Shown here: in pieces, positions 9,414-64,000 of the stretch
Layout of the letters: each line of letters opens with the position of its first letter
Position numbering within the stretch: the stretch's first letter is position 1
DNA from: Sphingosinithalassobacter tenebrarum
Lineage (GTDB): Bacteria > Pseudomonadota > Alphaproteobacteria > Sphingomonadales > Sphingomonadaceae
Direction of reading: 5' to 3'
Length of the DNA stretch: 64,000 nucleotides
Assembly: GCF_011057975.1 (NCBI RefSeq)
Contig: NZ_CP049109.1
Coordinates: 3,795,476 to 3,859,475, forward strand
Made by a program: the position numbers and the translations under genes
Notes under the pieces: model-generated
The model's database searches: none
What the model was told of the DNA's origin: nothing
What the model saw: only the letters and a program-made list of their open reading frames with translations

Positions 9414-9507
9414 CAGCCGTTGGGGCTGAGCCTGTCGAAGCCCCGTACTTCTTTCGCCACGCTGCAATGAAGAAGAGCCGGGCTTCGACAGGCTCAGCCC
9501 GAACGGC
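9414..9507. repeat. REP-like palindromic doublet, family A
   Basis: Arms of 29 bases at 9414-9442 and 9479-9507 are inverted copies with 28 matches. Each arm is itself a hairpin: the left one has stem GGGGCT/AGCCCC and the right one (minus strand) CGGGCT/AGCCCG, both around loop GAGCCTGTCGA. It lies between two convergent genes, and its right arm overlaps the last codons of the GT2 gene. Confidence 0.9.
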
Positions 9508-15815: not shown

Positions 15816-15843
15816 TGCGGCTGGCGGAGTAAGAAGAAGAACG

Positions 15844-15966
15844 GCGCTTCGACAAGCTCAGCGCGAACGGTTTCTTTCGTGGTAGCACATCCGCCCAAAG
15901 AAACCCGTTTGCCCTGAGCCTGTCGAAGCCTGTCCTGAGCGCCTGCCTTGGCAGGCAGTCGAAGGG
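15844..15966. repeat. REP-like palindromic triplet, family A, with a nested hairpin
   Basis: Unit 1 (minus strand, 15844-15870) has stem GCGCT/AGCGC around GAGCTTGTCGA. Unit 2 (15905-15928) is its inverted partner with loop GAGCCTGTCGA. A third degenerate unit follows (about 15932-15966), in which the loop is split by the perfect hairpin GCCTGCC-TT-GGCAGGC. The 15816-16053 gap holds nothing else but this and the hairpin at 16024. Confidence 0.85.
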
Positions 15967-18779: not shown

Positions 18780-20456
18780 ATGCTTCGATTCCCCCTGGCG
18801 CTCGCGCTGGCCGCGCTTGCATTTCCCGCTGCCGCGCAGGTCGCCCCCGATCAGACGGGCACGCCCGCGAAAAACGAAATCATCACCGCGCCGCTGCCCG
18901 AAGATCAGGCGGCAATGAAGGCGCATGTGATGTTCCTCGCCACTGACGCGATGCAGGGACGCGAGGCGGGCAGCCCCGAATATGACATCGCCGCCCATTA
19001 CGTCGCGTCGCAATATTATGCGGCGGGGCTGCGCCCGGCGGGCGACAATGGCGGCTATCTCCAGCGCGTGCCGCTGACGACCTACAAGCTTGCCGATCGC
19101 GGCGCCTTCACACTGACCGGGCCCGATGGCGAGGAAAGCGCGCTCGTTTTCGGTGAGGACTATGTGCCCGGCGCGAACGCCGCGAGCGCGACCACCGACA
19201 TTTCGGGCGAGCTCGTCTTCGTCGGCTTCGGCATCGATGCGCCGGGCGAAGGGCATGACGATTATGCCGGCGTCGACGTGACCGGAAAGATCGTCGTCTT
19301 CCTCAACGGCGTCCCCGACGACCTGCACAGCGAAATCCGCGCAACGCTGCGCCGGGCGAGCAGCAAGGCCGAAATGGCGGCGCGGCGCGGCGCCATCGGT
19401 GCGATCCTGATCGACAACCCCACCGGCGGGCGCAGCTATCCCTTCTCCGCGCTGGCCGCCAACTGGCAGCGCGCCGGCACCACATGGGTCGATGCGCAGG
19501 GCAACGGCCATTCGCCTTCCGCCGCGGCGCCGCTGCTCGCGACGATCAGCGCCGACAGCGCCGCCAAGCTGTTCGAGGGCGCCGAAACGGGCTGGGAAGA
19601 CATCGCGGCGAAAGCGGACGATACATCAACCGCGTTCGAGGCATTTCCGCTGGAAACCAGCCTGCATGCCGTGATTCACACCGAACGCGAGGATTTCGTC
19701 AGCTACAATGTCGCCGGCATCCTTCCCGGCAGCGATCCCGACCTGGCGAGCGAAGTCGTGGTGCTCACCGCGCATCTCGACCATGTCGGCGTCGGCAATC
19801 CCGACGCCAGCGGCGACACCATCTATAACGGCGCCGAGGACAATGCCGTCGGCATCGCCTCGCTGATCGAGGAAGCCAAGCGCTTTCAGGAATCGGGCGA
19901 ACCGCCGCGCCGATCGGTGCTGTTCCTTGCCGTAACGGCTGAGGAAAAGGGTCTGGTCGGTTCGGATTATTTCGCCAACAACCCGACTCTGCCCGGTCAC
20001 ACGCTGGTCGCCGACGTCAATCTGGACATGCCGATCCTGACCTATGCGTTCGAGGACATCATCGCCTTCGGCGCGGATCGTTCGACACTCGGTCCGATCG
20101 TGCGCAAGGCCGCGCAGGACGCCGGGGTCGGCTATTCGCCCGATCCGATGCCCGAACAGAGCCTGTTCGTGCGCTCGGACCATTATCGCTTCGTCCAGCA
20201 GGGCATTCCTTCGGTCTTCGTCTGGCCGGGCTTTGCCGGCAACGGCGAAGCGGGAACCAACGCCTTCTTCGCCGATCATTATCACAAACCGTCGGACGAA
20301 GTCGGCCAGTCGCCCGCGATCGACTGGGAAGCGGGCGTGCGCTTCATCAACGTCAACTACCAGATTGCCCGCGAAATCGCCGATGCCGACGAAACGCCGG
20401 TATGGAATGAAGGCGATTATTTCGGCACGCTGTATGAAGGCCCGATGGCCGACTGA
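18780..20456 (+). CDS. Exported M28 family metallopeptidase with PA domain (copy 1)
   Basis: A 558-residue protein with a signal peptide ('ALALAALAFPAAAQ'). A protease-associated (PA) domain is inserted around residues 130-290, and the M28 zinc domain follows. Zinc ligands are recognisable: His332 in 'TAHLDHVG', Asp in 'AEDNAVGIA', Glu-Glu in 'TAEEKGLVG', Asp in 'DVNLDMP', and His in 'DHYHKPSDE'. It probably acts as an aminopeptidase in the periplasm. It is the first of two tandem paralogues; a terminator separates them. Confidence 0.9.
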   Translation: MLRFPLALALAALAFPAAAQVAPDQTGTPAKNEIITAPLPEDQAAMKAHVMFLATDAMQGREAGSPEYDIAAHYVASQYYAAGLRPAGDNGGYLQRVPLTTYKLADRGAFTLTGPDGEESALVFGEDYVPGANAASATTDISGELVFVGFGIDAPGEGHDDYAGVDVTGKIVVFLNGVPDDLHSEIRATLRRASSKAEMAARRGAIGAILIDNPTGGRSYPFSALAANWQRAGTTWVDAQGNGHSPSAAAPLLATISADSAAKLFEGAETGWEDIAAKADDTSTAFEAFPLETSLHAVIHTEREDFVSYNVAGILPGSDPDLASEVVVLTAHLDHVGVGNPDASGDTIYNGAEDNAVGIASLIEEAKRFQESGEPPRRSVLFLAVTAEEKGLVGSDYFANNPTLPGHTLVADVNLDMPILTYAFEDIIAFGADRSTLGPIVRKAAQDAGVGYSPDPMPEQSLFVRSDHYRFVQQGIPSVFVWPGFAGNGEAGTNAFFADHYHKPSDEVGQSPAIDWEAGVRFINVNYQIAREIADADETPVWNEGDYFGTLYEGPMAD

Positions 20457-20522: not shown

Positions 20523-22163
20523 ATGTTACGTTCCCTGATTGCCGCCACGCTGCTGGTGGCGCCGCTGGCCGCATCTGCGCAGGAGGCGCCCGATCTGACG
20601 CCCGCGCAGCAATTCCTGCACGATCGCGTCGCCTATCTCGCTTCCGACGAGCTGCGCGGACGCGAAGCCGGCACGCCCGATTTCGATCGCGCCGCCGATT
20701 ATGTCGTGTCGCAGATGGAAAGCATTGGCCTGGAGCCGGGCGGCACCCAAGGCTGGTTCCAGCCGGTCCCGCTGATCACCTTCAGCCCCGGCGAGACCAG
20801 CGTCAGCTTCACTCGCGGCAACCGCAAGACCGAGCTGGAAAGCGGCGCCGAAGTGCTCGGCCTCGCCTCTGCGGTCGATGAGGAACGCTCGGTTTCCGGC
20901 AAGATGGTCTTCGTCGGCTTCGGCATCGACGACAGCGAAGCCGGGATTGACGATTATGAAGGCCTCGATGTCGAGGGCAAGGTGGTCGCGATGCTGTTCG
21001 GCGTGCCCAAGGACGCGCCGGAGGAAGTCGGACAGCGCTGGGGTGGCCTTGCCGACAAGGTGGAAACCGCGATGGCGCATGGCGCTTCGGCGGTGGTGAT
21101 CATCGAATCGGGCCAGCTGCGCGCGCGCCTGCCCTTCTCGGTGGTTTCGCAATATATCAGCCGCGGACGCACCACGCTCGACCTCGGCGCGGAAGCCGCC
21201 GGTGCCGAGCCGCTCGCGATGCTGAGCCAGGAAGCCGCGACCAAGCTGTTCGCCGGGTCGGGCATCGAGTTCGCCGATGTGTTGGAAGCGGAGATGGCTG
21301 GCAAGCCGGTCCCGCATGGCGCGCTCGGCGTGACGCTCGCCGCGCATGTCACGACGACGATGAACCGCTTCACCAGCAAGAATGTGATCGGCAAGCTGAA
21401 AGGCAGCGACCCCGAACTGGCGGGCCAGTATCTGGTCGTGTCGGCGCATCTCGATCATGTCGGCGTCGGCAGCCCCAATGACGAGGGCGACACCATCTAT
21501 AACGGCGCGATGGACAATGCGATCGGCGTCGCCACCGTGCTGTCGATGGCCAAGCGCTTCACCGAAGCCGGCGAAGCGCCGCGCCGCTCGATCCTGTTCG
21601 TCGCGCTGACGGCGGAGGAGAAGGGGCTGCTCGGTTCGCGCTACATGGCCGATCACTGGCCGGTGGGCGATGGCGAAATGCTGGTCGGCGACCTCAATTT
21701 CGACATGCCGATCCTCACCTTCCCGCTGACCCACATCGTTGCGCTCGGCGAGGAACACAGCTCGCTCGGCCCGGCCGTCCACATTGCCGCCGAAGAAGTG
21801 GGCATGGGCGTGATCCCCGATCCTTTCCCCGAAGAGAATTTCTTCGTCCGCTCGGATCACTACAGCTTCGTCACTGCGGGCATTCCGGCGATCTCGATCG
21901 ATTCGGGCCCCTCGCCCGACGGCACCGGAACCGATGCGATCCAGCACTTCCTGAAGAACGACTATCACAAGCCGTCCGACGAGATCGGGCTGATCAACTG
22001 GGAATCGGCAGCGAAATTCGCGCTGCTTTCCTATACGTTCGTGCGGAACGTCGCGAATGCCGACGAACGCCCGGCGTGGAATCCCGGCAACGAATATGGC
22101 GTCCGTTATGACGGCTATGGCGCCGACCGCGAGCCGGAAGGCGAAGCGGAAACGGCGGAGTAA
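20523..22163 (+). CDS. Exported M28 family metallopeptidase with PA domain (copy 2)
   Basis: A 546-residue paralogue of the preceding gene with the same order: signal peptide ('LLVAPLAASAQ'), PA domain, M28 catalytic domain. Ligands are His309 in 'SAHLDHVG', Asp in 'MDNAIGVA', Glu-Glu in 'TAEEKGLLG', Asp in 'DLNFDMP', His in 'DYHKPSDE'. The two proteins are clearly homologous but differ over most positions, so the duplication is not recent. The C-terminus has an acidic tail ('REPEGEAETAE'). Ribosome site GGGAGAGGATCCC precedes ATG 20523. Twelve bases separate it from the epimerase-like gene. Confidence 0.9.
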   Translation: MLRSLIAATLLVAPLAASAQEAPDLTPAQQFLHDRVAYLASDELRGREAGTPDFDRAADYVVSQMESIGLEPGGTQGWFQPVPLITFSPGETSVSFTRGNRKTELESGAEVLGLASAVDEERSVSGKMVFVGFGIDDSEAGIDDYEGLDVEGKVVAMLFGVPKDAPEEVGQRWGGLADKVETAMAHGASAVVIIESGQLRARLPFSVVSQYISRGRTTLDLGAEAAGAEPLAMLSQEAATKLFAGSGIEFADVLEAEMAGKPVPHGALGVTLAAHVTTTMNRFTSKNVIGKLKGSDPELAGQYLVVSAHLDHVGVGSPNDEGDTIYNGAMDNAIGVATVLSMAKRFTEAGEAPRRSILFVALTAEEKGLLGSRYMADHWPVGDGEMLVGDLNFDMPILTFPLTHIVALGEEHSSLGPAVHIAAEEVGMGVIPDPFPEENFFVRSDHYSFVTAGIPAISIDSGPSPDGTGTDAIQHFLKNDYHKPSDEIGLINWESAAKFALLSYTFVRNVANADERPAWNPGNEYGVRYDGYGADREPEGEAETAE

Positions 22164-30218: not shown

Positions 30219-31241
30219 ATGCCGCTGACAACGCGTTTCGCTCCCAGCCCGACCGGGCAGCTTCACCTGGGCCACGCATATTCGGCCGTGCAGGCGCATG
30301 ATCGTGCGCGACGCGCGGGCGGGCGTTTCCTGCTGCGGATCGAAGATATCGACGGGACGCGCAGTCGCCCCGAACATGTCGCGACGATCCTGGAGGATAT
30401 GCGCTGGCTGGGGCTCGACTGGGACGGTGAGCCGACCTTCCAGTCGCAGCGGCTCGATCTGTATCAGGCCGCGCTCGACAGGCTGCGCGACATGGAACTG
30501 CTTTACCCCTGTTTCTGCACGCGCGCCGACATCGCCGCGAGCGCCAGCGCGCCGCACGGGCCGAGCGGAATCATATACCCCGGGACGTGCCGCGGGCTGG
30601 CTGCGCCGGACCTCGACCGCCCGCATTGCTGGCGGCTGGATGTGGAGAAGGCACTACAATTCCTCCCCCGGAGGGAGTGGCGGGTTGGATTGCCCCCGGC
30701 AATCCAAGCCTGTGCTGGGGGCACAGGCTACCCGACACTGGGGACCAGCCGCAGGCTGGTGGAGGGGTATTCGCCGCAAGCGACACCGTCCGAGCGCAAT
30801 ACCCCTCCACCACCGCTTCGCGGCGGTCCCCCTCCCCCTCCGGGGGAGGAACTTGTGTGGCATGACGAAATCGCAGGCAATGTCATCGCCGACCCGCTGG
30901 CGCATGGCGACGTGGTGCTTGCGCGCAAGGATGCGCCGGCCAGCTATCATCTCGCGGTAACCGTGGACGATGCCGACCAAGGGGTCACGCACGTCATTCG
31001 CGGGCAGGATCTGTTCGAGGCGACGCATGTCCACCGGCTACTTCAGGCGCTGCTCGATCTCCCGACGCCGAACTATCGCCACCATCCGCTGCTCACCGAC
31101 AGTCAGGGCAATCGCCTCGCCAAGCGCCACGGCGCGCCGACGCTCGCGGCGATGCGCGAGAGCGGCGCCGACGGGCACGCGGTTGCCGATTCGCTCCGAA
31201 GCGGCACGCTGCCGGTTGGCATCGGCTTCGCGACGTCCTAG
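30219..31241 (+). CDS. gluQ: Glutamyl-Q tRNA(Asp) synthetase carrying an in-frame repeat insertion
   Basis: GluQ attaches glutamate to the queuosine base of tRNA(Asp). The class I signature is present: 'RFAPSPTGQLHLGHAYSA' (6-23, HLGH) and the KMSKS equivalent 'RLAKRHGAPT'. Zinc ligands are in 'CFCTR' and 'YPGTC'. The 340-residue product is about 65 residues longer than its relatives. The extra part (about residues 148-211, Pro/Gly-rich) is encoded by a palindromic repeat element at 30658-30854 that stays open in this frame. The sequence before ('HCWRLDVEKAL') and after it ('VWHDEIAGNVIADPLAHGDVVLARKDAPASYHLAV') joins normally. It may be functional with a surface loop, or impaired. Confidence 0.9.
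   Translation: MPLTTRFAPSPTGQLHLGHAYSAVQAHDRARRAGGRFLLRIEDIDGTRSRPEHVATILEDMRWLGLDWDGEPTFQSQRLDLYQAALDRLRDMELLYPCFCTRADIAASASAPHGPSGIIYPGTCRGLAAPDLDRPHCWRLDVEKALQFLPRREWRVGLPPAIQACAGGTGYPTLGTSRRLVEGYSPQATPSERNTPPPPLRGGPPPPPGEELVWHDEIAGNVIADPLAHGDVVLARKDAPASYHLAVTVDDADQGVTHVIRGQDLFEATHVHRLLQALLDLPTPNYRHHPLLTDSQGNRLAKRHGAPTLAAMRESGADGHAVADSLRSGTLPVGIGFATS
30658..30854. repeat. Family B repeat doublet with extra structured insert, inside gluQ
   Basis: Terminal inverted repeats TTCCTCCCCCGGAGGG (30660-30675) and its complement (30836-30852) bound two opposed family B units joined at TACCCCTCCACC. Each unit has an ACC...GGT hairpin (30744-30760 and 30809-30827). The left unit holds a 64-base insert (30676-30739) that can pair as three stems: AGTGGCGGGT/ACCCGACACT (9 of 10), TGGATTGCC/GGCAATCCA, and GCCTGTGC/GCACAGGC. 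Other family B copies lie at 16.0, 36.4 and 63.8 kb. Confidence 0.9.
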
Positions 31242-34381: not shown

Positions 34382-34475
34382 ACCGTTGGTGCTGAGCTTG
34401 TCGAAGCACCGTTCTGTTCTTTCTCGCCCAGTGGCAGAAGAAGAACGGCCCTTCGACAGGCTCAGGGCCAACGGT
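34382..34475. repeat. REP-like palindromic doublet, family A
   Basis: Arms of 34 bases (34382-34415 and 34442-34475) are inverted copies. The left hairpin has stem GGTGCT/AGCACC and the right one (minus strand) GGCCCT/AGGGCC, around loops GAGCTTGTCGA and GAGCCTGTCGA. It fills the gap after egtD. The remaining bases up to 34549 show only an AGGAGG ribosome site. Confidence 0.9.
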
Positions 34476-36321: not shown

Positions 36322-36360
36322 TTTCGGGTTCGCGGCCTTGAGCGACGCGCCTGTGGCCAT

Positions 36361-36415
36361 GCCCCTCCACCATCGCTTCGCGACGGTCCCCCTCCCCGAG
36401 ACAAGCTCCGGGAGG
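36361..36415. repeat. Family B repeat unit
   Basis: One unit with both hairpins: ACCATCGC-TTC-GCGACGGT (36369-36387) and CCTCCCCGAG-ACAAG-CTCCGGGAGG (36391-36415, one mismatch). It lies between the PhzF gene and the end of the CNNM gene, whose stop codon is three bases beyond. Confidence 0.8.
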
Positions 36416-63780: not shown

Positions 63781-64000
63781 TCCTCCCCGAGCTCGTCTCG
63801 GGGAGGGGGGACCGTCGCGAAGCGATGGTGGAGGGGCAGCGGCGCAGCCGCGGTTTCGGTTCGCGCCGGGGCGCAAACAACGCGGAGACGGCATGGCTTC
63901 GAAAGGGCTCTACGTCCTCTGCACGAGATTCGAGCCTGTCAGGTTTCCCGCCGCTGACGCGGCGCCCCTCCACCACGCTGCTATGCAGCGCGGTCCCCTC
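63781..64000. repeat. Family B repeat units in opposed orientation, cut by the window end
   Basis: Left unit: CCTCCCCGAG-CTCGT-CTCGGGGAGG (63782-63806) then ACCGTCGC-GAA-GCGATGGT (63811-63829) and GGAGGGGC. Right unit, inverted: CCCCTCCACC then ACCaCGCTGC-TAT-GCAGCGcGGT (63972-63994), running off the edge. The 130 bases between them show no gene. It follows the rsh stop codon directly. Confidence 0.8.

Follow-up and report, generated by a model that had tools for sequence, protein, structure and literature searches.

The gluQ gene of Sphingosinithalassobacter tenebrarum, which codes for glutamyl-queuosine tRNA(Asp) synthetase (GluQ), carries a 192-nt palindromic repeat in frame and without stops, and the loop of the enzyme that holds it is, to judge from the sequences of relatives, a recurrent landing site for at least three unrelated palindrome families. 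We consider it probable that these are selfish palindromes, retained within coding DNA at loops able to accommodate them. In-frame palindromes are themselves of a known kind, as the Rickettsia palindromic elements (RPEs) and REPs in genes attest, and what appears to be new is the turnover of several families at a single loop. The RPE and Wolbachia elements are reported as palindromes of 105-146 bp that lie between genes and in frame in conserved genes, and a guanylate kinase with an RPE is reported to be made as protein and to work, though its substrate affinity is changed (PMC2229807). The gluQ element resembles the RPEs in being a palindrome found both between genes and in frame in a conserved gene. 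It differs in its hosts, the likeness being one of description and not of RPE sequence, and in that several unrelated families replace one another in one loop of GluQ. The studies in Rickettsia left open the question of whether such repeats are simply carried along in proteins or contribute to their shaping.

Results

The window, by which we mean the whole 64,000-nt stretch that was analysed, holds gluQ at 30219..31241 on the plus strand, given in the list of open reading frames (ORFs) as a single uninterrupted frame of 340 amino acids. The repeat, a member of what we call family A (TTCCTCC...GGAGGAA), occupies 30660..30851 (+) and was read from the sequence as 192 nt or 64 codons, in frame and stop-free, which bears out the initial annotation of an in-frame palindromic repeat inside gluQ. 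That annotation had put the addition at about 65 residues; the element does encode 64, but the net gain over the usual 12-residue loop is 60. It had also taken the repeat for a plain member of its family, and here the membership stands but not the plain form: the copy is a doublet of ~129 nt, one arm of which contains a further, nested palindrome of 63 nt. The nested palindrome lies in the left arm at 30676..30738 (+), and the gluQ copy is longer than the usual family-A copy because of it. The common part of the doublet, delimited by identity to own-genome copies, lies at 30739..30851 (+) and includes an inner stem at 30757..30812 (+), an inverted repeat whose 15-nt arms (30757-30771 and 30798-30812) are 100% complementary. 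Only one other place in the genome matches the nested palindrome (28 of 63 nt, G000:C1:560142-560169); this copy, L009, has the same nested layout, and the left part of the gluQ insert is 91% identical to it over 44 nt. Folded as RNA, the 192-nt element is predicted to form one long palindrome of -145.7 kcal/mol (z = -12.1), with none of 200 dinucleotide shuffles as low. The listing of direct and inverted repeats gives two partial family-A copies elsewhere in the window, one at 36346..36397 (+), matched at G000:C1:3831831-3831872, and an inverted one at 63801..63852 (-), which is 87% complementary to the first and absent among the family matches listed.

Family A yields 73 matches in the genome, merging to 40 places. 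Terminal inverted repeats, a MITE trait, are present as TTCC..CC and GGAGGAA-type ends at 30 of these 40 places, where a pattern search for such ends recovers full copies, 20 of them 120-135 nt long; the pattern misses the gluQ copy, whose ends were read directly from the sequence. The family lies mostly outside genes, as initially proposed: three of the 40 places (gluQ, ligD and glyS) are in conserved coding frames, with coding support on both flanks and matches to family models, the remaining 37 not having been annotated individually. All three are in-frame, stop-free copies. When the 30 full copies are read on two strands in three frames each, 34 of the 180 combinations are in frame and free of stops. 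A further ORF across a family-A repeat (L018) has a coding signal on both flanks, yet no Pfam or NCBIfam match, and was excluded from the three.

The common part of the gluQ doublet is 85-89% identical to its three closest own-genome copies, against 76-80% over 100-113 nt at best for the gluQ inserts of other species, in a comparison that covered 37 own-genome places and gluQ inserts of at least 110 nt. Since the own-genome copies are closer than the inserts of other species, this points to an origin from family A of the same genome, by arrival or later conversion, and not by plain descent from an old shared insert. The ends of the element (TTCCTCC...GGAGGAA) carry neither the GTAG nor the CGTC tag of known REPs. 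A search for the RAYT transposase domain (Y1_Tnp, PF01797) gave no match in the own genome, with the control found in 5 of 14 genomes, and an Rfam scan of the window gave none at gathering scores. No consistent target-site duplication was seen by eye in the flanks of the 40 places, the minus-hit loci being wrongly oriented for this reading.

To place the insert among its relatives, 190 gluQ loci were read as DNA, comprising 30 from a family search, 80 from named genomes and 80 fetched stretches, with some genomes occurring twice (L036 and L107 have identical loop DNA). The commonest empty loop between WRLD and WHD has 12 residues (36 nt; 124 of 190 loci), compared with 72 in the window. With L178 set aside because its loop could not be placed, the remaining 189 loci comprise 140 with loops of up to 14 residues, 27 with 15-39 and 22 with at least 40 (4/30, 17/80 and 1/79 by set), and, as each set is the top of a list ranked by likeness to a query that is in frame and bears an insert, these insert counts are inflated. 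At all 190 loci the loop is stop-free and its length divisible by three, including all 49 loops of at least 15 residues, although the same ranking could hide frame-broken copies. A check of the whole frame marked 11 loci, but none in the gene body: in two the break is at the very first residue, and in the other nine it falls among the final 11 codons.

Relatives with an empty site, as the initial annotation anticipated, occur within the genus itself (own genome plus 10 others): of nine loci read, with those of G311 and G356 left out, five have loops of 10-12 residues (L046, L189, L148, L035, L174), L048 has 20, and the own locus (L031), L032 and L034 have at least 40. The further claim that the flanks join exactly as in uninterrupted relatives did not hold, as this gluQ lacks the ARTGP-like residues that an empty loop has. 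Among the best 120 homologues listed, none carries the same whole 65-residue stretch, which agrees with the original expectation; some (P0003, P0006) share the family-A right end, and others carry different repeats or short loops. Loops of at least 40 residues are found in 78 of these 120, a biased figure given that the homologues are ranked by likeness to the insert-bearing query.

The occupants of the loop differ. Family A is also present in the gluQ loops of L061 and L063, family B (CTCCCTCTCCC...GGGAGAGGG) in those of L065 and L069, and the inserts of three other loci (L034, L073, L155) start with CGTCACCCC, in which they resemble the GTAG/CGTC REPs. In Sphingobium, L099, L103, L109 and L124 have extra DNA a few codons further on. 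The fold z-score is below -5 in 15 of the 22 large inserts, while no same-length stretch of the gluQ core (0/22) falls below -3; the z-score is above -3 in seven of the inserts (L076, L084, L099, L103, L109, L124, L155). Several short loops resemble single-hairpin remnants (for example, PLPQGEREL), and in some of the 15-39-residue loops no repeat is obvious. This is the only large internal site in the protein: across 297 distinct GluQ cores the longest internal insertion elsewhere has 13 residues and lies near the C-terminus, and the longer extras are N-terminal extensions. A translatable repeat in a conserved enzyme had been called uncommon, but this loop is a hot spot and inserts are not rare in Sphingomonas relatives.

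The 297 cores, mostly from Sphingomonadaceae, combine the best 120 homologues listed with the 190 loci, after removal of L178 and of 12 rows whose core stretch duplicated that of another row, which reduced the set from 310 to 297. They were placed on a FastTree phylogeny from which the loop was excluded. A loop of at least 40 residues, present in 93 of the 297 rows, requires 42 changes on this tree, at least 12 of them forced by well-supported (starred) branches, where support is approximate and the changes do not separate gain from loss. Shuffled labels require a mean of 79.5 changes; the presence of an insert is thus more clustered than by chance labelling and partly inherited. By insert type, assigned from peptide patterns, type A (49 rows) takes 37 changes, 11 forced; type B (30 rows) 26, 7 forced; type E (5 rows) 5, 3 forced; and type D (4 rows) 4, 3 forced, with other types in 5 rows. 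Since CGTC-headed repeats occur in type D as well as in type E, these two may form one superfamily, and we count at least three families. Among the pairs listed, enzymes with nearly the same core hold different loops: L063 (type A) and P0029 (type B) have 95.5% core identity, P0034 (short loop) and P0038 (type E) 97.0%, P0004 (type A) and P0030 (short, B-like) 97.4%, and L071 (short) and P0090 (type A) 97.8%.

At one genome per genus, a clear gluQ was found in 52 of 59 genomes, with gaps that were multiples of three in all 52; a repeat insert was present in 2/52 (the own genome and G028), and G023 has a 26-residue loop with no obvious repeat. Hence, the hot spot in gluQ is concentrated in Sphingomonas and its near relatives. 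For the other seven Sphingomonadaceae genomes (G003, G007, G022, G024, G025, G035, G040), which were not fetched, the N-terminal half of GluQ gave weaker matches only, taken as gltX, and this suggests that gluQ may be dispensable and sometimes lost.

One loop of GlyS-beta behaves similarly across genera, with inserts of at least 20 residues in 23 of 55 usable genomes (one per genus; L323 of G037 was left out because its N-part match stops at residue 227, where the frame breaks, and not at the loop, and GlyS of G007, G034 and G040 is not in the count). All 23 are in frame and belong by eye to several families. Their fold z-score is below -3 in 13 of 23, versus 0/23 core stretches, and at or above -3 in the other 10. 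The comparison gene tgt was matched in 57 of the 59 genomes searched, and in 55 of these the match was continuous. The exceptions are G038, of another genus (L325, G038:C1:1279800-1282200), with an in-frame insert of ~40 residues resembling family A (RPPPPEGEDRPPPSSLRDATSPASGGG), and G007, in which tgt is in three pieces and the genome is 86% complete.

The enzyme of the window scores 331.7 bits against the GluQRS equivalog model NF004315 (cut-off 250) and 158.3 bits against PF00749, and falls below the cut-offs of TIGR03838 (267.3 against 276.7), NF004314, NF004313 and NF004312. Its core contains all four motif patterns, which we take to be the catalytic and zinc-type motifs; these are complete in 82 of 93 insert-bearing cores, versus 133 of 204 others, although misses may stem from the narrowness of the patterns. 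Both tgt and queA are found in the genome, so queuosine should be made in this strain. An AlphaFold2 model built from 24 sequences (mean pLDDT 76.6, pTM 0.77) gives pLDDT <50 for the insert (residues 151-208) and 83-92 for the flanking blocks, with residues 110-113, 118-122 and the C-terminus likewise <50; the insert is thus modelled as a disordered chain. By sequence, the protein corresponds to the E. coli GluQ structures 1nzj and 4a91.

Discussion

The most probable account, as set out above, is that a multicopy, REP/MITE-like palindromic element entered a structurally permissive loop of GluQ. As the element codes for a Pro/Gly-rich chain and is fairly often stop-free, it would be translated as a disordered loop. 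Such elements would insert widely, with selection purging the copies that break a frame or hit a fold, and those copies would persist that keep the frame intact and lie where a loop can bulge out as a disordered chain. In Sphingomonas and near relatives the GluQ loop has been filled, in part lost again with small hairpin footprints left behind, and filled anew by palindromes of other, unrelated families, and one loop of GlyS-beta shows this pattern across the family. The sequence features, the intact frame in the loci read, the turnover of several families and the confinement of inserts to a single internal site of GluQ are direct observations. From them we infer that the element is or was mobile, that the insert is translated and the enzyme still active, and that the insert is tolerated more probably than beneficial.

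The best-surviving alternative, which we nonetheless regard as unlikely, is that the insert is kept for a function, either as an mRNA hairpin that tunes translation of gluQ and glyS or as a loop that alters contact with the tRNA. A very stable hairpin within coding sequence and a phenomenon common to two tRNA-charging enzymes fit this idea, and tRNA synthetases and pseudouridine synthases are among the REP-carrying genes named in one survey (PMC3733652). A function would nevertheless have to survive exchange between unrelated families, between short and long forms and even full loss among near-identical enzymes, and it does not readily explain inserts with no palindrome signal (L084 and L103, z = 0.4 and -0.8) or the inserts in LigD and one Tgt.

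Very unlikely, in our assessment, is a second alternative, raised in the initial annotation, in which the insertion abolished GluQ activity or gluQ is in decay, leaving tRNA(Asp) without glutamyl-queuosine. Sixty extra residues within the catalytic core, a score below the TIGR03838 cut-off and the apparent dispensability of gluQ (the 7 of 59 genomes with weaker matches taken as gltX) could be read in this way. Against it, the four motif patterns are all retained, the NF004315 score is above its cut-off and the frame is intact in all 49 loops of at least 15 residues. Terminal branches of insert-bearing cores are not longer than those of others (median 0.064, n = 93, versus 0.127, n = 204), although denser sampling contributes to this difference. 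GlyS-beta, which is part of an essential synthetase, bears the same kind of insert. A pseudogene was rejected, with motifs, frame and pathway all kept, and a loss of activity appears unsupported given that motifs, frame, tgt and queA are retained; judged by sequence features, the gene seems not so much broken as host to an element at a site where landings are tolerated.

Skipping of the element, by ribosome bypass or RNA excision, to give a protein that lacks the insert is highly improbable: the hairpin is stable enough for bypass to be imagined, but a skipped element would need neither frame nor freedom from stops, and both are kept in the 49 longer loops, read from similarity-ranked lists. 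That the stretch is simply a disordered loop evolving fast, or an artefact of assembly, to which some 15-39-residue loops with no obvious repeat might lend colour, is less probable still in view of the 85-89% DNA identity to the closest other copies in the genome (matches that also rule out a chance linker), the fold z-scores far from those of core controls, the single-contig, 99.99% complete assembly and the comparable inserts in independent genomes, which make the assembly error considered at the outset unlikely.

Tolerated selfish palindromes thus remain our preferred reading, and they can be set beside other known systems. Of the hosts in which REPs have been studied, E. litoralis and S. 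alaskensis belong to the Sphingomonadales. REPs are reported in coding regions of both, including those of tRNA synthetases, and CGTC REPs in S. wittichii, and recB of X. campestris and X. oryzae has different REPs at about the same site (PMC3733652). Family A differs from these GTAG/CGTC REPs in its TTCC/GGAA ends, and the survey gives one same-site case and otherwise different sites, whereas the GluQ loop has at least 12 forced changes. GluQ or GlyS may be among the synthetases in Additional file 3 of the same paper. Correia, RU-1/ERIC and RU-2 elements are described as short non-autonomous inverted-repeat MITEs fused in frame to genes (PMC2229807), and the gluQ element differs from them in having no identified target duplication or matching transposase. 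By title and abstract, and with subscription journals mostly outside coverage, the literature on palindromic repeats in Sphingomonas or Sphingomonadales, on palindromes in tRNA synthetases and on insertions in GluQRS gave no treatment of the present case.

The GluQ loop offers a natural series in which the same site of one enzyme, set in near-identical cores, is free of repeats, bears the footprint of a single hairpin or holds a complete doublet from one family or another, and this would allow tests of insert cost, target choice and the rate of element movement in free-living bacteria. It also calls for caution, since a long stretch rich in Pro and Gly in a sphingomonad protein can be the translation of a repeat. 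A more tentative proposal, possible but doubtful, is that both loops, in gluQ and in glyS, act as self-renewing landing pads, in which the footprint of one palindrome is a preferred target or recombination substrate for other families, so that one family would replace another in place at a pace exceeding that of evolution elsewhere in the protein. If this were true, such loops would be a natural record of the palindromes currently mobile in a lineage.

Several observations touch on other copies and repeats of this genome. In ligD (L007:890-3112), the in-frame family-A copy (G000:C1:653760-653892) lies between the phosphoesterase and ligase domains. The own glyS beta gene (L225:469-3180, inside G000:C1:910463-914171) has, besides the family-A insert in one of its loops, another Pro/Gly-rich insert of a different kind (TTPLPQAGGAGGG...) that lies nearer the C-terminal domain. 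A second, CTTCGACAGGCTCAG-like repeat family occurs in the window at 9468-9507, 15832-15871 and 34436-34475, and in some other genera the GlyS loop is filled by peptides that resemble its translations (RPEPVEG, STSSARTG), a link made by eye. The window also contains a direct repeat of 270 nt with 74% identity (19695-19964 and 21369-21638), perhaps representing two related genes or domains.
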